This document shows, piece after piece, positions 130 to 8,386 of a stretch of 8,516 bases of DNA; positions within the stretch are counted from its first letter, which is position 1, and the number at the start of each line of letters is the position of its first letter. The translations under genes were made by a program, and so were the position numbers. Under the pieces are notes generated by a model that was not told the DNA's origin, did not search any database, and worked only from the letters and a program-made list of their open reading frames with translations. The DNA comes from Pirellulaceae bacterium (GTDB lineage Bacteria > Planctomycetota > Planctomycetia > Pirellulales > Pirellulaceae), in NCBI GenBank assembly GCA_013002105.1, contig JABDKS010001066.1, positions 1 to 8,516 of the forward strand, in the 5' to 3' direction.

Positions 130-1779
130 CTAAAATGCCTGCTGCCAACCCGCGTCGAATTGTTCTGTCAGGTCAGCTACTACGTCTGAATTCTCGCTGG
201 CGATATTCTTTGTCTCGTCGGGATCGTTCTTGTGATCGAACAATTCGACATACAATGGTTCCGCACCGGGATCGCGATGGTCACGCCAGACGACCAAGCG
301 GTATCGATCGGTTCGCATCGTGTAACCCATCAGATGTTGCTCGAACAGTTCGCGATCCCACTTGTCGCCTTGCTGTGTGATGATCCGCTGTTCCACTTCC
401 TTGATCAAAGGACCGAACCACGTTTCACGCATCCCTTGCGAAAGTGGATTTGCGGCCCACTCGCGCAGTGCCGGATTGGGGTACTGACTGAATGCGGCTT
501 TTTTCCACGGCTGATCAGGTTGATCCAATAGAGGCACAAAACTGTGTCCTTCGATATGTTCTGGGATAGATACTCCCGCCAATTCGCAAAGCGTTGGATA
601 CATATCTACTAATTCGACTAGAGCATCCGTTTTTGCGCCGCGAGTTTTCATGTCGGGCGTCCAAATCATCAGCGGAACGCGAGTGGCAATCTCGTAGTTC
701 GTGGCTTTTCCCCAGACGCCCATGTCGCCAAGGTGCCAACCGTGATCGCCCCAGACAATGATAATGGTATTGTCGCGAACACCCGCGTCGTCGAGAGCCT
801 GGACCATCAGTCCGATTTGAGCGTCGACATAACTGGTGCTCGCCAAATAGGCATGTTTAAGCGTACGCGACAGTTCCGGCCCAAGCGGTCCGATCTTGGG
901 AATCCCCGCTCGCGTGCGTAGTTCGAACGAAGCGTGCAGGCCCATTGCGGCTCCGTCCTCGGGTGCCTCGTGCTCGCGGGCCATCGGGATCTTCGCTGGG
1001 TCGTAAAGATCCCAGTACTTTTTGGGCGCACACCAATTCAGATGCGGTAGTTTGTAGCCCATGCCCAGAAAGAATGGTTTGTCACCGTTGGCAACCATCT
1101 CCTTTAGCGTCGCGATCGCTAACTGCGTGTTGTAGCCATCCATATACGCGGTGTCGGGTACATCGGCGGACTCATAAGCCGGTCCGGCAGCAAGGCCGCG
1201 TCGAGCCGCTTCACCGTACTTCGCCAACATCCGTTTCATGTTGTCGGCCTTCATCTTGTTATTCTCAGGCAACGCATAGCCGCCCGACGGTTTCTTGATG
1301 CCCTTGATCCATTTCACCGGATTGCGACTCCACGACGTCCCTTCGTCGGTATCACCGTTGTGAAAGATTTTGCCACAATAAGCGGTTTCGTAACCATTCG
1401 CGATGAAGTGCTGCGGTAGCGTTAAAATGTCGGGCTGAAGCTCGCGAAGCGCCACGTAGTTGTGAAACAGTCCGGTCGTCTCGGGTCGCGCACCGGTCAT
1501 CAGACTCGCCCGCGAAGGACGGCAAATCGCCTGCTGACAATAGGCTCGATTGAACAGCAACCCGTCTTGGGCCAACGCATCCAGATTCGGCGAAACAGCA
1601 ATCGGCGATCCGTAGCAACCAAGCTCCGGACGCAAATCGTCCACCGCAATGAACAACACGTTTGGTTTGTCACCGGCACTGGCCGCGGCAGGCACAACCG
1701 CCAATGCGAGAAATGTAAATGCCAGCGCAAACGAGCGATGGGCAGTTGTTGTTCGTGCGATCAAATTCATTGTTTTCAT
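130..1779 (-). CDS. Secreted type I sulfatase, iduronate-2-sulfatase-like
   Basis: The predicted 549-residue protein is a formylglycine-dependent sulfatase that hydrolyses sulfate esters, probably on a sulfated sugar. It begins with a basic stretch and a hydrophobic signal peptide (about residues 17-35, ending ASA). The alkaline-phosphatase-fold catalytic residues are visible: metal-binding D47 and D48, the CRPSR maturation motif at 86-90 with C86 as the formylglycine precursor, K137 and H140 in a GKIFH motif, H246 in a KLPH motif, D345 and H346 in a GDHGWHLGD motif, and K358. The DDLRPELGCYG start, YxxPH region and late MGYTMRTDRYR block resemble human iduronate-2-sulfatase. From memory this group corresponds to SulfAtlas S1_7. 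I chose the ATG at 1779. A TTG lies one codon upstream and another ATG lies at 1770; none has a clear Shine-Dalgarno. It is the last gene of the minus-strand block, 116 bp after the GH16 gene, next to which carrageenan-type substrates are likely. The exact substrate is not determinable from sequence alone. Confidence 0.93.
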   Translation of the reverse strand: MKTMNLIARTTTAHRSFALAFTFLALAVVPAAASAGDKPNVLFIAVDDLRPELGCYGSPIAVSPNLDALAQDGLLFNRAYCQQAICRPSRASLMTGARPETTGLFHNYVALRELQPDILTLPQHFIANGYETAYCGKIFHNGDTDEGTSWSRNPVKWIKGIKKPSGGYALPENNKMKADNMKRMLAKYGEAARRGLAAGPAYESADVPDTAYMDGYNTQLAIATLKEMVANGDKPFFLGMGYKLPHLNWCAPKKYWDLYDPAKIPMAREHEAPEDGAAMGLHASFELRTRAGIPKIGPLGPELSRTLKHAYLASTSYVDAQIGLMVQALDDAGVRDNTIIIVWGDHGWHLGDMGVWGKATNYEIATRVPLMIWTPDMKTRGAKTDALVELVDMYPTLCELAGVSIPEHIEGHSFVPLLDQPDQPWKKAAFSQYPNPALREWAANPLSQGMRETWFGPLIKEVEQRIITQQGDKWDRELFEQHLMGYTMRTDRYRLVVWRDHRDPGAEPLYVELFDHKNDPDETKNIASENSDVVADLTEQFDAGWQQAF

Positions 1780-1812
1780 CAATTACTGGTCACGATTTGA
1801 TTTGCGATGGTC

Positions 1813-1836
1813 GCCTACGATGCATGGCTTGTAGGC
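1813..1836. repeat. Inverted repeat GCCTAC/GTAGGC in the gap before the last sulfatase
   Basis: GCCTAC (1813-1818) and GTAGGC (1831-1836) form a 6-bp perfect stem with a 12-nt loop. It lies 34 bp upstream of the sulfatase ATG at 1779, inside the longest gap of the minus-strand block. It may be an RNA hairpin in the operon transcript or a protein site. It has no U-tract, so I do not call it a terminator. Confidence 0.3.
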
Positions 1837-1852
1837 AGAAGAGTGATATCGA

Positions 1853-1865
1853 CTGTTTGAAACAG
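1853..1865. repeat. 13-bp odd palindrome CTGTTTGAAACAG
   Basis: This is a perfect palindrome with a one-base centre in the 116-bp gap between the GH16 and iduronate-sulfatase-like genes. The form suits a dimeric DNA-binding protein better than an RNA hairpin, since only four pairs can form around a usable loop. No recognisable promoter was found in the same gap. A chance occurrence cannot be excluded. Confidence 0.3.
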
Positions 1866-1895
1866 ACATCCGTGATGGTACACAATAACGACTCG

Positions 1896-3017
1896 TCAAT
1901 CAGACCTTCCTGCGTCGGACCGCTTCACTTTGAACCACTCCTGACGTTCTTTACCCGATGCGACACCGTCGGCGTCCGTATCGATTTCGACAAAGTTCGA
2001 TTTGACTTTCGCCTGATTCCATGTCCAACCATTCTTTTCCCAGTTCGCTTTTTCCTTTGCAATGTACTGCTCTTTGGTCCAATCATTTGATGACTTCGCT
2101 GTCTGCGGGTCGGTCCAGACGCGCACGTAATCGACCGACATGTAGGTTGGAAAACCATCGCCAGTCGTCTTGTCAGCAACGGCAACGCGTTCGTTGTTTT
2201 CATAACCGACGAACGGATATCGCAATCCAAGCGAAAGGGTGACGTGCATCGGAATGTGCCAATACAGGTTCGGCTTTCGTGCGACCTCCTTGCCATCGAT
2301 GTACCAAATGATTTCTTCTTTGCTGTTCAGAACGCCGTAAACGTGATAGTCATCGCGTGGATCCCACGGTGCATCAAAGTGATTGGCACACAACTCGGGC
2401 CGGTTACCCGGTCGAGCCCACACGCGCTTGCCGTCCTTTATCAGCGTCGTATGCAGGTTGCAGTCAATGCGAGTGACTGGAAAGTGCTTATTCGTCTTAA
2501 AGTCGAATTCGCTTTGTTGCAATTCGACGACGTCAATTTCGGAATACGCGACGGTCTCGCCATCGCTTGCTCGGTAACGGTTTTGGGGACCGATACTGTA
2601 AAGCCAAAATGACGGACAGGCCCCGGGATACCGTGAACAACCTTTGATGCGGGCTTCAAAGTACCCGTAGGTAATTGTTTTCTCGTTGCGAGCCATCCCC
2701 GAGGTGTAATGAAAGGTTTGTTTACCACGTTGGTGATCTTTTTGAACCATCCGCAAGTGCAAGGATCCGTTCTTCTGCGCAACGTTTCCCGGTTCCCAAC
2801 TCCAGACACCAAAATCTTCGGTATCAATGTTCCACTTCCCTAAATCGATCTCATCGCTATTGAATTCATCCGAATGTTCACTGACAAACCGCCACTGCAC
2901 CGAGTCGATATCGCTGGCATCGCCGAGGGGCGCAAAATCGCCGGCCCCCAAAAACGAGCCGTGCGAAAGCAAAATCATCATTCCCAACCAAAGCAATTTC
3001 ATCGATAGAATTCTCAT
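1896..3017 (-). CDS. GH16 kappa-carrageenase-like endo-hydrolase with EF-hand tail
   Basis: The predicted 373-residue secreted enzyme is a family GH16 retaining glycoside hydrolase. The catalytic signature SEIDVVELQ gives E160 (nucleophile), D162 and E165 (acid/base). Several blocks match what I recall of Pseudoalteromonas kappa-carrageenase CgkA: FGVWSW, HYTSGMAR, YGYFEARIKG, PSFWLYS, the LHTTLIKDG and RPGNRPEL region, DPRDDYHVYGV, NLYWH, LSLGLR and SVDYVRVW. This points to GH16 subfamily 17 and cleavage of beta-1,4 bonds in kappa-carrageenan, rather than to beta-agarase or porphyranase. A signal peptide lies at about residues 1-25. After the catalytic domain (ending near 303), a Lys/Trp-rich linker leads to a single EF-hand-like loop at 346-357 (D-x-D-x-D-G-x-x-S-x-x-E). 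The ATG at 3017 is preferred: a longer frame from 3110 would overlap the upstream sulfatase end, and its extra 31 residues would bury the signal peptide. A weak GGTG lies 6 nt before the start. The gap to the upstream sulfatase is 41 bp. Confidence 0.92.
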   Translation of the reverse strand: MRILSMKLLWLGMMILLSHGSFLGAGDFAPLGDASDIDSVQWRFVSEHSDEFNSDEIDLGKWNIDTEDFGVWSWEPGNVAQKNGSLHLRMVQKDHQRGKQTFHYTSGMARNEKTITYGYFEARIKGCSRYPGACPSFWLYSIGPQNRYRASDGETVAYSEIDVVELQQSEFDFKTNKHFPVTRIDCNLHTTLIKDGKRVWARPGNRPELCANHFDAPWDPRDDYHVYGVLNSKEEIIWYIDGKEVARKPNLYWHIPMHVTLSLGLRYPFVGYENNERVAVADKTTGDGFPTYMSVDYVRVWTDPQTAKSSNDWTKEQYIAKEKANWEKNGWTWNQAKVKSNFVEIDTDADGVASGKERQEWFKVKRSDAGRSD

Positions 3018-3058
3018 TGCAAACACCAATTCAGTATGCTGCCAACGGTTGTACGCGA

Positions 3059-4558
3059 TTAATCGACCGCGAAGGTGGACTGATATTTCGGCATGCCATC
3101 CATTTTCCAAGCCGCCTCGGACTTCTCGTTGTCAAACCAACGTGGTTGTGTATGCGACTGACTCCACTTGCGACCTTCGTCGACCATCTCGCTAACGATC
3201 TCGGGATGCTTTCCACTCAGGTCATTTGATTCGCTAATGTCATCGTCCAGATTGAACAGGTTCCAGGGTGAATTGGGGCCACGCTTGGACGCCTTCCATT
3301 GGTCTTTGCGAATACCGACATTATGGAAACCATTCCAGTGTCGCAGCGCAAAAATCGTTTCGCCTTGGCGCGGACTGCGATCAGCCAGAAAGGCGTCCCA
3401 GATATCTTTGCCGTCTATTTGTTTGCCACTCGCGATCGTGGCACCGGCAAGACGTGCGAACGTGGGATAGAAATCGAGTGCGGAAACCGGGTGGTCGTAT
3501 CGCACGCCCGCTGGCACGCTTGCGGGCCAATGAAAAAACATCGGCACACGAAATCCGCCTTCGCAAATACTTCCCTTGCCCTGAGTCAACGGTGCGTTGT
3601 TGGCACCCGCTCCGATCTTTCCACCATTGTCGCTCAGAAAAACGATCAGCGTGTTTTCTAATTCACCTGTCGATTTCAGCGTATCAACGAGTTGCCCAAC
3701 GCCGCGATCGACCGCGTAGACCATAGCCGCATAAGTGCGACGCTTCTCATCTTGAATGTCGGCAAACTTTGCCAAATCCTCCGCTTTGGCCTCCAACGGA
3801 GTATGGGGTGCGTTGAAAGCCAGGTACAGAAAGAACGGCTTGTCCTCTTGAGCGGCAGCTTTTGCGAACCTTGCCGCCTCGCGTGAAAGACCGTCAGTGA
3901 TGTACTCCGTCTCCTCCACATCGACACCGTTGTGCTCCAACGGCAGGACATACTCATTGATATGCTCGACACCGTTCTTGCTTTGCCGCTGGTAGATCGG
4001 CGCAAATTTCTCCGGAAAATACATATGCCCGCCGCCCAGGAATCCATAAAAGTCATCGAACCCGCGTCGGTTGGGATGGAACTGCGGTTGGATGCCCATG
4101 TGCCATTTACCCACCGCACCGGTGAAATAGCCGGCGTCCTGTAACACCGTACTGATCAATGGTTCGTTTTCGTCGATGCCTTTTGCGTTGTACTGCTCGA
4201 TCCCTAATCCACTATTGGGCAGATTGAATGGTGATCCAAATGAATGCGGATAGCGTCCCGTCATCAGCCCCATTCGACTTGGACCACAAAACGGATGTGC
4301 AACATAGGCGGACGAAAAGATCGTTCCGTTCTTGGCCAACTGATCAAGCGAAGGCGTGGTGATGTCCGTCGAACCGTTGAAGCCGACGTCCGCGTATCCA
4401 AGATCGTCACAAAGAATCAAGACGATGTTGGGGCGTTCCGCGGTCACCGCCGCTAGGTCGGATGTAAATGTCACGACGCAAGTAAGTGCCAAGATCACAT
4501 GTCTGAGGGATCGCAGCGTCCTATCCAAGCCGACTGCGCAACCGCACAGTGTGGTCAT
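3059..4558 (-). CDS. Secreted type I sulfatase, arylsulfatase-like (possibly S1_19)
   Basis: The predicted 499-residue protein is a formylglycine-dependent sulfatase. Its N-terminal signal peptide has a basic n-region and a hydrophobic core at about residues 20-35. Visible active-site residues are D51 and D52 (CDDLGY), the CGPSR motif at 91-95 with C91 as the formylglycine precursor, K151 and H153 in GKWHMG, H252 in NAPHTPLEA, D310 and N311 in LSDNGG, and K328 in TQGKGS. The smaller C-terminal subdomain follows from about residue 395. Overall form is that of bacterial arylsulfatase A-like enzymes. The carrageenan sulfatase subfamily S1_19 is a reasonable guess from context, but unproven. The reading frame stays open to 4657, but starting there would overlap the preceding gene by about 90 bp. 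The ATG at 4558 lies 7 bp after that gene's TAA and places the signal peptide correctly. No Shine-Dalgarno is visible, so translational coupling is likely. It requires a formylglycine-generating or anSME-type maturase, which is not in this window. Confidence 0.93.
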   Translation of the reverse strand: MTTLCGCAVGLDRTLRSLRHVILALTCVVTFTSDLAAVTAERPNIVLILCDDLGYADVGFNGSTDITTPSLDQLAKNGTIFSSAYVAHPFCGPSRMGLMTGRYPHSFGSPFNLPNSGLGIEQYNAKGIDENEPLISTVLQDAGYFTGAVGKWHMGIQPQFHPNRRGFDDFYGFLGGGHMYFPEKFAPIYQRQSKNGVEHINEYVLPLEHNGVDVEETEYITDGLSREAARFAKAAAQEDKPFFLYLAFNAPHTPLEAKAEDLAKFADIQDEKRRTYAAMVYAVDRGVGQLVDTLKSTGELENTLIVFLSDNGGKIGAGANNAPLTQGKGSICEGGFRVPMFFHWPASVPAGVRYDHPVSALDFYPTFARLAGATIASGKQIDGKDIWDAFLADRSPRQGETIFALRHWNGFHNVGIRKDQWKASKRGPNSPWNLFNLDDDISESNDLSGKHPEIVSEMVDEGRKWSQSHTQPRWFDNEKSEAAWKMDGMPKYQSTFAVD

Positions 4559-4565
4559 CGCGTTG

Positions 4566-6299
4566 TTAGTACCCAAGAGGTTTTCCCTTTTCATACATCG
4601 TTTTAATTTCTTCGGGCGATAAAGCCGCGTCGAAAATGGCCAGTTCATCAATGGCACCGTTCAAATTGCGAACCGCGAACCAAGGTGACTTACGCAGTGG
4701 CTGCCCCCAGTTGCCGATCTCGGCTGCGCCAATTCGTAAGTCGGAAATATGAAACTTGTCGATGATTTTCTCGCTGCTGATTCGGTCACCATTGACATAC
4801 TGATCGACCGTGCGACCAATCGGATCGTAAACTGCCGCAACTTGAAACCACTGACCGCTTTGCGAGCCGTCCATAAACGGTTCGGTGTAGTAAATGTGAT
4901 GCAAACCCGCTGTCGTGATGACTCGCTGATCTGTCTTGTCAAATCGTGGAACGTTGACGGTGTCATCGACCATCACCGAAAACATCAGTCGCCCATCGTC
5001 ACGTATTTGCCAGTGCGGTTCGCCGTTGTCGTAGCCATCGCCCATGAACAAAGAGTTGTAACGATGCTCCAATGAGTCGACTCGAATCCAACAACAGAAC
5101 GTGAACGCTTTGTATTCACCGTCGATGCGTGTTCGCACCCGAGAACCCGGTCGATCGAAGCCGACACTCGCCGACAAAGGTCCAAACCGACCGGTGGATT
5201 GGCTGACCAGCCCAACTTGGATGCCGTCACGCTCAGGTCCAGTGGCTGCTGCGTTATCAATCACACGCTCCGCGTTTTGCGCCGCGATGGGAAAGTAGGC
5301 GATTAGCCTATCGTCGTTTGCCAGTTCTTGGCAATGAGTTCTCCATTGCTGGAAACGCTCGCGTAGAGCTTTCTCGTGGCGTCGCTCGACATCACTCTTG
5401 GTACTCAAATCTTGCAAAAGATCGCCACCAGCATCGTCGCCCTTGAGCGACCGGCCTTGGCCAGTGACCAAATGATCGCCATCGTGTCGGCCCCCCTTCA
5501 GCTTGACTTCTCCGTCGACGACTTCGACACGTACATTGTCCGCACCTACATCCAAGGCGAATTCCGTCCCCAAATCGATGATTTGAGAATCGGCCGCTTT
5601 AACGATAAATCCTCTCGCAGCCGGGGGAACGTTGGCCCGCAATCGTCCCGAGATCAATCGCACCGACCAATCCGATTCCAAATCCAATTTTGCGGGACCT
5701 TCGACGATCACCGCGGCACCACAGAAAAAGTCAATTTCCGCGACACCGTCTTCAAATTCCAATACGCCGGCCGGCAACACGTCCCCTTCGCGAAACGCTT
5801 TCGCATTGTTGGCCCACTCGATCCCAGCATTACGACGCAGCGTCGCATGACCAGCGATCGTCTGCTCAGCCGCTTCGTCACCCGAGTCATCTCCGACTTC
5901 GCGCGGCATAGCATTATTCGTTGCCACCGCGTCTTGAGCGACTTCTTTTGCCGCGTCGCTTTTGCCGAATTGGTAAGCAAGTCCACCGACGACTAGCAGC
6001 ATCGCTGCCGCACAAGCCAATTGAATCCAGGTCGCAACGCGACGGTTCCCTGCTCCTTGCCGCCCATGTTCCGTTGGTTCGTTTAGTGGACGACCGGCTG
6101 CAGTCTGAGAATCGGACACACTAGGGTTGCTAGACGCAATCTCCCGGAGCGCCGCGTCCAATCGCGTCAACTCGCGAAACGTATCGCGTGCCTCGGTTGA
6201 CTCGAGCAACCGTTGTTGCAGCGCTTGCGACTGTGTCTCGCTAATGCGGCCGTCCAACCAAGCGGCAATCAACTCATTCAGATCCGATGGACTCATCAT
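4566..6299 (-). CDS. Membrane FecR-LamG protein, likely anti-sigma regulator/sensor
   Basis: The predicted 577-residue single-pass membrane protein appears to be the partner of the ECF sigma factor encoded just upstream. Residues 1-55 are an acidic, helical, cytosol-facing segment (LNELIAAWLDGRISETQ) like planctomycete anti-sigma N-termini. It contains no cysteine, so there is no zinc-binding HxxxCxxC motif. A transmembrane helix spans about 90-110. A FecR domain follows at roughly 155-268, with ISGRLRANVP, DLGTEFALDV and VEVVDGEVKL blocks, then a charged linker at about 285-325. The C-terminal LamG/concanavalin-like domain (about 328-573) includes TFCCWIRVDSL, NGEPHWQI, GQWFQVAAVYD and GAIDELAIFD. 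Such lectin-like folds often bind glycans, so this domain could sense extracellular or periplasmic polysaccharide; that is inference. The start at 6299 overlaps the sigma stop as ATGA and has GGAG five bases upstream. A second ATG follows at 6296. A longer frame to 6551 runs inside the sigma gene and is not believed. Confidence 0.88.
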   Translation of the reverse strand: MMSPSDLNELIAAWLDGRISETQSQALQQRLLESTEARDTFRELTRLDAALREIASSNPSVSDSQTAAGRPLNEPTEHGRQGAGNRRVATWIQLACAAAMLLVVGGLAYQFGKSDAAKEVAQDAVATNNAMPREVGDDSGDEAAEQTIAGHATLRRNAGIEWANNAKAFREGDVLPAGVLEFEDGVAEIDFFCGAAVIVEGPAKLDLESDWSVRLISGRLRANVPPAARGFIVKAADSQIIDLGTEFALDVGADNVRVEVVDGEVKLKGGRHDGDHLVTGQGRSLKGDDAGGDLLQDLSTKSDVERRHEKALRERFQQWRTHCQELANDDRLIAYFPIAAQNAERVIDNAAATGPERDGIQVGLVSQSTGRFGPLSASVGFDRPGSRVRTRIDGEYKAFTFCCWIRVDSLEHRYNSLFMGDGYDNGEPHWQIRDDGRLMFSVMVDDTVNVPRFDKTDQRVITTAGLHHIYYTEPFMDGSQSGQWFQVAAVYDPIGRTVDQYVNGDRISSEKIIDKFHISDLRIGAAEIGNWGQPLRKSPWFAVRNLNGAIDELAIFDAALSPEEIKTMYEKGKPLGY

Positions 6300-6865
6300 G
6301 CGTTCTCCGCCGCGAGTGATTTGGACACGCACTGCATCAGCGAGGTGCGCAAACGCTGGATCACTTTGTAAAACGCCTGCTCGCTCCTGCCGGTTTGCAA
6401 GGCGACGTCTCGCATCACAACGCCAGGCGCATGGACGCGTAACAATATGCTGCGTTTTTCCGGTGGTAACTTTTCCAGGCAAGTTTCCAAATGCCGCCGA
6501 TAAACCGTTGGAGTCTCGTTTTGGACAGACTCGTCTGCCAACAACTCCCAAAGGTCGTCAGCAAAGACCAGTGGCGTGCGAGCGATCCGGCGACGATGAG
6601 CGAGTGCCTCGAATCGAGCGATGGTGAGGAACCATCCGCCAAACGCTGTACCCTGCTCAAAGTCCGCAAATTTACGCCACGCGATCAGTCCAGCCTCTTG
6701 CAAGACATCGTCCACATCGTCCCACGATGGCAGTAGTCCACGTAAAAACGACCGCACCTGTGGTTCATGTTCCAACAACAATTGGACAAACACCTCGCCA
6801 ATGTCCCTGTCGCCCTTATCGGCGATTGGCAATTGGGTTTTGTCGTCAGGAGGACTTTCGTTCAT
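6296..6865 (-). CDS. ECF-type RNA polymerase sigma factor
   Basis: The predicted 189-residue protein has the two-domain layout of extracytoplasmic-function sigma factors. Sigma region 2 spans about residues 25-93, with the DDVDDVLQEAGLIAWRKF core-binding segment and the GGWFLTIARFEALAHRRR -10 recognition segment. Region 4 spans about 126-178, with LEKLPPEKRSILLR leading into a helix-turn-helix (about 150-172) for the -35 element. It resembles the Rhodopirellula/Verrucomicrobium sigma-70 family that I recall as TIGR02989. A purine-rich ribosome binding site lies 6 nt before its ATG. It is the first gene of the minus-strand block and overlaps the FecR-LamG gene by ATGA, the usual arrangement for a sigma and its membrane-bound anti-sigma. 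It probably directs transcription of this locus, perhaps including its own promoter, but the promoter it recognises is not known. There is no sign of truncation. Confidence 0.93.
   Translation of the reverse strand: MNESPPDDKTQLPIADKGDRDIGEVFVQLLLEHEPQVRSFLRGLLPSWDDVDDVLQEAGLIAWRKFADFEQGTAFGGWFLTIARFEALAHRRRIARTPLVFADDLWELLADESVQNETPTVYRRHLETCLEKLPPEKRSILLRVHAPGVVMRDVALQTGRSEQAFYKVIQRLRTSLMQCVSKSLAAENA
6303..6308 (-). promoter_or_regulatory. Ribosome binding site of the FecR-LamG gene
   Basis: On the minus strand GGAGAA lies inside the sigma gene's last codons, with GGAG five bases before the ATG at 6299 and eight before the ATG at 6296. It supports starting FecR-LamG at the sigma stop codon instead of the long upstream open frame. 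The ATGA overlap suggests translational coupling that keeps sigma and regulator in proportion. Confidence 0.6.
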
Positions 6866-6871
6866 ACCAAT

Positions 6872-6880
6872 TCACCCCCT
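6872..6880 (-). promoter_or_regulatory. Ribosome binding site of the ECF sigma gene
   Basis: On the minus strand AGGGGGTGA sits six bases before the ATG at 6865 and is a good anti-16S match. The downstream enzyme genes show weak or no such site, so this one stands out and fixes the sigma start. Confidence 0.65.
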
Positions 6881-6925
6881 GAGAACGTTAATTTGGACAA
6901 ACGATTCGCGATCTACGCCAAAAAA

Positions 6926-7141: not shown

Positions 7142-8386
7142 ATGCAAAGAACACAGAGAACAGGCGGCTTCACATTGGTGGAGCTTCTCGTGGTGATTGC
7201 CATCATCGGGATTCTAATCGGACTGCTGTTACCAGCGGTCCAAGCGGCTCGCGAAGCCGCACGTCGGATGAGTTGCAGTAACAATTTCAAGCAAATTGGA
7301 CTGGCGATTCACAACTATCACAGTGCCTACAAGCAACTCCCGTTGCATGGGGCAGGCACGAACTCGCCGGGCGGTGGTGCACCGCCATTCGGCAATGCAG
7401 GACCATCCATGAACTGGTGGACCAATCACTCCCACAGCAACTCGTGGCGTTTGAGCATGTTGGTCGGGCTGACTCCCTTTATCGAGCAGCAAGGTATCTG
7501 GACAACCATCTCCAATCCCAATGAGGTGGATGCGACGAACCTGCTGAATCCGTTGACCCCGCCGTGGCCACCGATGGGACCGGCACCGGTTCAGGCACGC
7601 TACGGGCCGTGGTCGACTGAGATTCCGACCTACCGCTGTCCCAGCGATCCGGGTGTTGGCCTGCCGGCTCTTGGACGTACCAACTACGCAGCCTGCCTGG
7701 GCGATTCCTACTATTGGTCGATTCGTGGACCGCGTCGGTTCGATGGATCGGGCGCCTACCCATTGCACAGCGGCTGGACTCAACATTCTCGTGCGGCTGA
7801 CCGTGGTGCCTTTGTACAGCACAAAGAAGCCAAATTCCGTGATGTGCTCGATGGCCTATCCAACACAATCGTGATGGGGGAAATTGTATCGGACCTGGGT
7901 GACCGCGACATCCGTACGATTCCCGTTCAACACGCTCAGGCCTACACCGATGTACGCGACAATCCCAGTTGGTGCGTGGATCAAGCCTACGCCGACGCTA
8001 AACGGCCACGATTTTGGCGCCCCGGCGAACCGACCTGGGGTCGTGTCAACGGGCGTGGATACCGCTGGGCGGATCACCGCGTCGGGATGACCGGGATGCA
8101 TACCATTTTGCCCCCGAACGCTGGACTGTGTGCGCAGCGTTTCCCAGGCGGTGCGCTTGTCGCACCACCATCGAGTCGGCACCAAGGTGGCTGTCACATT
8201 CTGATGGGCGATGGCGCGGTCATCTTCATGACCGATTCGGTCGAAGCGGGTGATTCGTACGCGCCGATGGTGTGGCGAAACGGCACAGGTGCCGCCGCCC
8301 CCGGATCGATCAGCCCCTATGGTCTATGGGGTGCGCTGGGTACCAAAGCGAGTAGCGAAACCGTCGAAGAACAGCTGAATCAATAA
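7142..8386 (+). CDS. DUF1559 protein with prepilin-type N-terminus
   Basis: The predicted 414-residue protein belongs to the DUF1559 (SBP_bac_10) family, which is greatly expanded in planctomycetes and of uncertain function. The N-terminus is a type IV prepilin/type II secretion pseudopilin signal: a short basic leader, cleavage expected after G9 before FTLVELL, then a hydrophobic helix to about residue 33 and the [14 protein letters not shown] motif. Family blocks follow: [16 protein letters not shown] (45-60), RCPSDP (165-170), NYAACLGD (181-188), [12 protein letters not shown] (236-247) and the C-terminal H-X9-DG motif with H347, D357 and G358. The length is typical and nothing seems missing. 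It would be exported, processed by a prepilin peptidase and anchored or assembled at the envelope. It is divergent from the carrageenan-type block across 276 bp and has its own terminator. No clear Shine-Dalgarno or promoter was found. A part in polysaccharide binding or uptake is possible but speculative. Confidence 0.93.

Follow-up and report, generated by a model that had tools for sequence, protein, structure and literature searches.

The FecI/FecR system pairs an ECF sigma factor with a FecR-type transmembrane regulator. The stretch of DNA analysed here (the window, apparently a whole contig of 8516 bases) resembles it in that an ECF sigma gene overlaps the gene of a FecR-domain protein predicted to cross the membrane once, with an anti-sigma part in the cytoplasm, but differs in that the outermost part of the window sensor is a LamG lectin-like domain, in that the linked genes encode sulfatases and a carrageenase, and in that no partner TonB-dependent receptor of the FecA kind was found among the six window gene products scanned.

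The enzymes have their closest described counterpart in the carrageenan regulon of Zobellia galactanivorans, where S1_19 and S1_7 sulfatases and a GH16 kappa-carrageenase are co-induced and act on carrageenan, the S1_7 sulfatase CgsB1 and the S1_19 sulfatase CgsA acting on kappa- and iota-carrabiose motifs, and where some carrageenases lie outside the core set (PMC5698469). The window holds similar enzyme kinds, S1_19-like and S1_7-like sulfatases and a GH16 kappa-carrageenase, but whilst Zobellia uses the AraC-type regulator CgrA and a SusC/D-like pair, the window has an ECF/FecR-LamG pair and no transporter in view (PMC5698469). For ECF sigma factors and class I anti-sigma factors, co-evolution has been described in which the anti-sigma domain follows the sigma group (PMC7406223); the same holds here, however, the remainder of the sensor does not follow sigma, and the motif in the leader changes with it. 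Amongst planctomycetes, activity is reported for RsCgk of Rhodopirellula sallentina, like the window enzyme a GH16 kappa-carrageenase (PMC9783963). Of the two such genes in that species, the one at our locus L004 encodes an enzyme that shares 53% identity with the window's; it lies on a 12.1-kb contig without a sensor match and may or may not be the gene of RsCgk. Planctomycetes from the red alga Porphyra carry kappa-carrageenase genes and show fast turnover of sulfatase clusters (PMC4807772), and in that text "FecR" and "LamG" occur 0 times and "sigma factor" once. At the level of titles and the opening lines of abstracts, we found among the papers listed neither ECF/FecR-LamG control of carrageenan genes nor the exchange of promoter-sigma-anti-sigma cassettes in planctomycetes.

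Five minus-strand genes follow one another in the window: ECF sigma factor, FecR-LamG protein, sulfatase, GH16 kappa-carrageenase and sulfatase (Table 1). The sigma and FecR-LamG genes share an ATGA overlap and the later gaps are 7, 41 and 116, confirming on window coordinates what the initial annotation had described. Family scans of the longest frames, which covered six gene products, placed the sigma factor in TIGR02989 (Rhodopirellula/Verrucomicrobium family) at 156.8 bits against a curated cut-off of 124.55. No SusC/SusD was detected among these six products, again as first annotated, and the locus does not qualify as a polysaccharide utilisation locus of the Bacteroidota type; the absence of receptor and transporter applies to this contig. 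A divergent gene at 7142-8386 (+) encodes a DUF1559 protein with a prepilin-type start and an H-X9-DG end; we rejected it as a member of the unit, no DUF1559 match being labelled in the stretches of 42 other sensor loci.

Table 1 Positions of the features of the window, and of one case from related loci.
Feature	Position	Strand	Basis or remark
Sulfatase 2, S1_7-like (label assumed), usual partner of the sensor in relatives	130..1779	-	CRPSR at 1524-1510
GH16 kappa-carrageenase with EF-hand-like C-terminal piece	1896..3017	-	EIDVVE at 2540-2523; DTDADG at 1982-1965
Sulfatase 1, S1_19-like	3059..4558	-	Relatives include iota-carrageenan sulfatases; CGPSR at 4288-4274
FecR-LamG transmembrane anti-sigma factor/sensor, 577 aa	4566..6299	-	PF04773 and PF13385 over cut-off; AF2 model
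LamG/concanavalin-A-like domain, residues 332-556, putative glycan sensor	4632..5306	-	PF13385, model, structure search
FecR beta domain, residues 152-286, presumably periplasmic	5442..5846	-	Model
Predicted membrane helix, hydrophobic residues 91-111	5967..6029	-	Within model helix 87-122
Putative anti-sigma domain, residues 1-57, predicted three-helix bundle	6129..6299	-	AF2 model; co-varies with sigma type
ECF sigma factor, TIGR02989 family, type a, 189 aa	6296..6865	-	Family scan, sigma typing
Putative sigma-target promoter motif TGTCCA-N18-GTG	6873..6899	-	Starts 34 nt before sigma start codon
Motif with sensor, sigma elsewhere (G531/G533)	L091:1302 and L164:2535; L222:7000-7572		

Both sulfatases match PF00884 (220.7 for sulfatase 1 and 158.2 for sulfatase 2, cut-off 25) and carry the C/S-x-P-S-R motif of formylglycine sulfatases (S1), as CGPSR and CRPSR, respectively. 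The five best solved matches of sulfatase 1 are 6bia (Sulfatase), 6b0j and 6b0k (Iota-carrageenan sulfatase), the closest three at E-values of 1e-183 to 1e-185, then 9hh3 and 9hh2, both labelled S1-19, and by these closest chains the enzyme groups with the S1_19 carrageenan sulfatases. The best solved match of sulfatase 2 is the arylsulfatase 6hhm, which we take to be an S1_7 enzyme, hence the label. The GH16 enzyme scores 490.3 against the NF041449 cut-off of 350, its EIDVVE fits ExDxxE, and its closest solved chains are the kappa-carrageenases 5ocq, 1dyp and 5ocr, which together make it a kappa-carrageenase; the sulfatase motifs and EIDVVE are presumably the active-site motifs. The EF-hand-like piece, some 50 C-terminal residues (312-361) of the window carrageenase, recurs at 58-65% identity directly behind S1_19-like sulfatases (L004:8822-8971, also L082, L084 and L086), perhaps as a shared anchoring or calcium module. 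At L103:9559-12621 (-), a single 1020-aa frame joins an S1_19-like sulfatase to a GH16 kappa-carrageenase, a natural fusion in the same place of the operon.

The sensor matches FecR (PF04773, 30.4, gathering score 24) and Laminin_G_3 (PF13385, 55.9, gathering score 27.6), and its AF2 model (mean pLDDT 84.6) has one long helix that contains the hydrophobic run, giving a FecR domain with one membrane helix. This arrangement would place the helical anti-sigma domain inside and FecR and LamG in the periplasm. Near residue 60 the three-helix bundle of the model ends and a disordered stretch starts, before the membrane helix. Between the window and its relatives, identity is 52-83% in residues 191-285 of the FecR domain and 53-74% in LamG. 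The 50 matches listed for LamG in a structure search were all trans-sialidases/sialidases or binding or companion domains of clostridial neurotoxins, with TM-scores of 0.13-0.41, which we read as a generic jelly-roll or lectin-like fold class giving no hint of ligand or toxin kinship.

A search for the five-gene order in other planctomycete genomes, which the initial annotation had called for, recovered the full order in L003, L097 and L103 (in the last with sulfatase and GH16 in one frame) and partial versions in more. Amongst these layouts, which draw in part on a set of loci picked by GH16, L089, L092 (with a divergent S1_19), L093, L096 and L104 lack the S1_19 gene in between, L095 lacks sulfatase 2 and L001/L002 have GH16 only. 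Behind sulfatase 2, loci with enough further sequence mostly have frames of ~930 and ~500 aa; in L089 these are a PSCyt1/PSCyt2/PSD1 protein and then a DUF1501 protein, and length and place suggest the same identities at the other loci.

Kappa-carrageenases over the NF041449 cut-off number 23 in the family of R. sallentina, where 17 of 241 genomes have them; in a sample of the phylum, 2 of 392 genomes do. The same 241 genomes hold at least 38 close FecR-LamG homologues (E ≤ 1e-100, in 37 genomes) and at least 73 sulfatase-2 homologues (E ≤ 1e-130, in 65 genomes), both lower bounds because up to five candidates were scored per genome. Among the matches listed in this family-wide draw, sulfatase 2 lies on the same strand within 10 kb at 34 of the 38 sensors, and kappa-carrageenase at 8 (close by in G527, G401, G397, G497, G578, G558 and G546, ~6 kb off in G531); seen from the enzyme, a sensor is nearby in 8 of the 23 kappa-carrageenase genes. 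The initial suggestion that one pair is tied to one carrageenase does not survive these counts, and we reject a pair dedicated to the carrageenase: the usual partner of the pair is the second sulfatase, 64-85% identical in nearly all rows. The four sensors without sulfatase 2 in reach are those of G533 (on a 10.5-kb contig), G601 (where 252 bases separate the match from the end of the contig), G522 and G401 (where S1_19 and GH16 are present). Also among the matches listed, the 10 kb around 39 of the 73 sulfatase-2 homologues contain no listed sensor; some of these homologues lie at contig ends, and one, L203, adjoins a sensor fragment.

The sigma factor and the first ~55 residues of the sensor fall into three sets by identity to the window, and unsupervised clustering returned the same three types, a, b and c, with 5, 27 and 8 loci. 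Mean sigma identity is 57-66% within types and 24-35% between them, and each type is one branch of the sigma tree (a 99/91, c 100/100, b 91/58). In the sensor tree, however, the types are mixed, with 6 changes where 2 would do (L002, a near-copy of L001, was dropped from the trees). The sensors themselves belong together: a quick tree sets 35 of them apart from 12 paralogues as a single branch (100), whereas an AU test rejects holding 33 of their sigmas together against those of the 12 paralogues (p 2.5e-72; 33 of 40 sigmas were kept after removal of seven near-duplicates, and 12 of the 15 paralogue loci, L131 and L138 having given no sigma match and L133 being the G311 locus itself). The sigma/sensor pair is not a constant one, with three sigma/anti-sigma-domain types serving the same sensor clade. 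Identity of sigma correlates at 0.90 with that of the anti-sigma domain (residues 1-60; 32 loci), co-variation being the evidence that the cytoplasmic domain may bind sigma, and at 0.28 with that of the sensor (Mantel p 0.002). The ratio of within- to between-type identity is 1.9-2.0 for residues 1-60 and 0.97-1.14 after them (34 thinned loci), which places the end of the type signal near residue 60. A tree of the anti-sigma domain (58 columns) keeps type c as one branch (100/99) and does not hold type a together.

Each type also has its own motif in the sigma leader, counted from 250 nt upstream to 130 nt downstream of the annotated start of sigma. TGTCCA-N18-RTG occurs in 5/5 type-a leaders and 0/35 leaders of other types, GGTA-N15-GGAA in 21/27 type-b leaders (absent from six) and GTTA-N16..18-CTAT in 8/8 type-c leaders, the latter two in 0 leaders of other types (Fisher p 1.5e-6, 2.3e-6 and 1.3e-8 for a, b and c); discovery and counting of the motifs used one and the same set of loci, and for type a, which has just five sigma leaders, the motif was noticed by eye before it was counted, the gap-pattern scan alone not having recovered it. 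Motif b overlaps the start of the longest sigma frame in L175, L187, L188 and L190 and is ~200 nt away in L167 and L170. The motif at 6899-6873 is the sole type-a match on either strand of the window, and a leaderless transcript or one with a very short leader would follow from its position.

Scans of whole loci gave 18 occurrences of motif b in 374 kb from type-b loci (22/27 loci scanned), always at sigma leaders, and 0 in 316 kb of other types. Motif a has 8 occurrences in 163 kb of its own type, 7 of them at these operons, compared with 6 in 528 kb of the others; for motif c the figures are 10 in 153 kb, with 7 of them at sigma leaders, and 1 in 538 kb. Genome-wide, strict motif b gave 11 matches in 8 genomes, 7 of them before this operon, with 0 in the reversed control; the operon match is the only one of its genome in G594, G597, G569, G600 and G001, whilst the single match of G311 lies elsewhere. 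The corresponding type-a scan gave 20 matches against 5 in the reversed control, with 3/20 at these operons, its pattern also requiring an NTT that is missing from some type-a leaders. Independent support for the type-a motif comes from G531 and G533, whose sensors carry an anti-sigma domain of type a but have no adjacent sigma gene: the motif stays with the sensor operon and stands ~200 and ~150 nt before the sensor gene, respectively, and a 69-70% identical sigma is encoded ~25 kb off on the same contig (G531) or on another contig (G533). In L092 and L112, the divergent S1_19 sulfatase has a type-c motif of its own; a third type-c motif in L092, at 18984 (+), is away from the sigma and sulfatase leaders.

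We consider it likely that the locus, apparently from a marine planctomycete, is a sense-and-degrade operon that is self-contained and under positive autoregulation, and that its output cassette (promoter, sigma and anti-sigma domain) is exchangeable. Gene order, gene families, the sigma mosaic, the co-variation and the motifs are observed, whilst the topology, the ligand, the way sigma is released, the activity of the promoter and the common transcript are what we infer. FecR-LamG would sit in the inner membrane and, when no ligand is present, hold the ECF sigma factor; on meeting a sulfated galactan, probably carrageenan-type chains or fragments, LamG would cause the release of sigma, which would bind the promoter motif at 6899-6873. 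Sigma, sensor, sulfatases and carrageenase would then be transcribed together and sigma would amplify its own operon, which is probably autoregulated. Carrageenan is the presumed controlling signal because of the enzymes linked to the sensor, which would desulfate and cleave this seaweed polysaccharide. The conserved core across relatives is the sensor and the second sulfatase, with the carrageenase and the first sulfatase optional; the output part would be an exchangeable cassette that comes in three or more types, its junction lying in the disordered linker on the cytoplasmic side, around residue 60. Of the sense-and-degrade unit first proposed, the self-contained part is supported by the conserved order and, in type-b relatives, by a leader motif nearly unique to the operon, whilst the exclusive tie to the carrageenase is lost.

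The signal may however not be kappa-carrageenan, as 30/38 of the listed sensor loci have no kappa-carrageenase within 10 kb. The cue for the pair could be a different one, either another sulfated glycan or a signal from the envelope, with the pair tied to sulfatase 2 and the carrageenase inserted downstream, using the existing promoter; the preponderance of sulfatase 2 beside the listed sensors speaks for this, as do the many loci with sulfatase 2 alone followed by genes of PSCyt/PSD1 and DUF1501 size. Two observations make us doubt it, though we give it some weight: in one carrageenase lineage (98, quick tree), 10 of the 12 rows are linked to the pair, with all three sigma types represented, and an S1_19-like sulfatase is present in operons without GH16 (L165, L166, L169, L187 and L188). 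That the adjacency is a by-product of abundant sulfatase and ECF genes, the five genes not being one regulatory unit, is very improbable and already disfavoured. Candidates are indeed plentiful at first look, with 38-462 sulfatases per genome in the 65 genomes with a match and 10-49 FecR-LamG proteins per genome in 13 genomes, but the order recurs with short gaps, the same sulfatase stands beside most listed sensors, and the ~1.5 kb flanks of 14 FecR-LamG loci that are more distant hold no close match to sulfatase 2.

The sigma mosaic, for its part, could stem from ancient duplications of the operon, with differential loss and rapid divergence of sigma, rather than from cassette exchange. A single clade of type-a sensors is not rejected (AU test, p 0.29), 14/39 forks of the sensor tree are open and long branches meet in the sigma tree, all of which would suit such a history. 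We nevertheless judge it unlikely: type-a sigmas join those of the paralogues L137/L139 (99/99), where the FecR-LamG proteins share only 31-32% identity with that of the window, type-c sigmas join those of another set of paralogous pairs, L128-L130 (97/95), the type signal drops sharply after residue 60, and the type-c L093 is nested among type-b sensors (97/91). On the reading of cassette exchange, the three types need at least two replacements and more are likely, the number of swaps being uncertain because same-type sensors cluster more than shuffles, sigma and sensor identity are weakly correlated and the type-a clade is not rejected. Sigma, its promoter and the sensor segment by which it is probably held appear, from these comparisons, to have been exchanged together, whilst the sensor and one sulfatase stayed constant.

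The apparently exchangeable promoter-sigma-anti-sigma cassette is the greater surprise here. We lean slightly towards the wider proposal that evolution rewires the output of a glycan sensor by swapping a compact cassette, with sensor and target sulfatase kept and the regulon of each cassette essentially one operon, giving naturally insulated circuits. Planctomycetes have many FecR-LamG proteins, and the locus gives one pair a testable substrate and a testable promoter; the natural chimeras show where in the sensor the signal would be read and where the output would be set, and the locus could supply insulated carrageenan-responsive switches.

Some further arrangements were seen in relatives. 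In G557, a type-a motif (L085:10882, -) lies ~300 nt upstream of a kappa-carrageenase far from the sensor operon, a single case that is suggestive only of possible control in trans. At L195:5847-11650 (+), the set of sulfatase 2, 939-aa and 500-aa frames stands behind a different sigma system, an ECF sigma (PF07638) overlapping a 1723-aa kinase-WD40 protein. Proteins with LamG and BNR_2 are encoded upstream of sulfatase-2 homologues without a sigma/sensor pair at L204:8981-10861 and L205:4994-6853, in L205 with an S1_19-like gene between the two.
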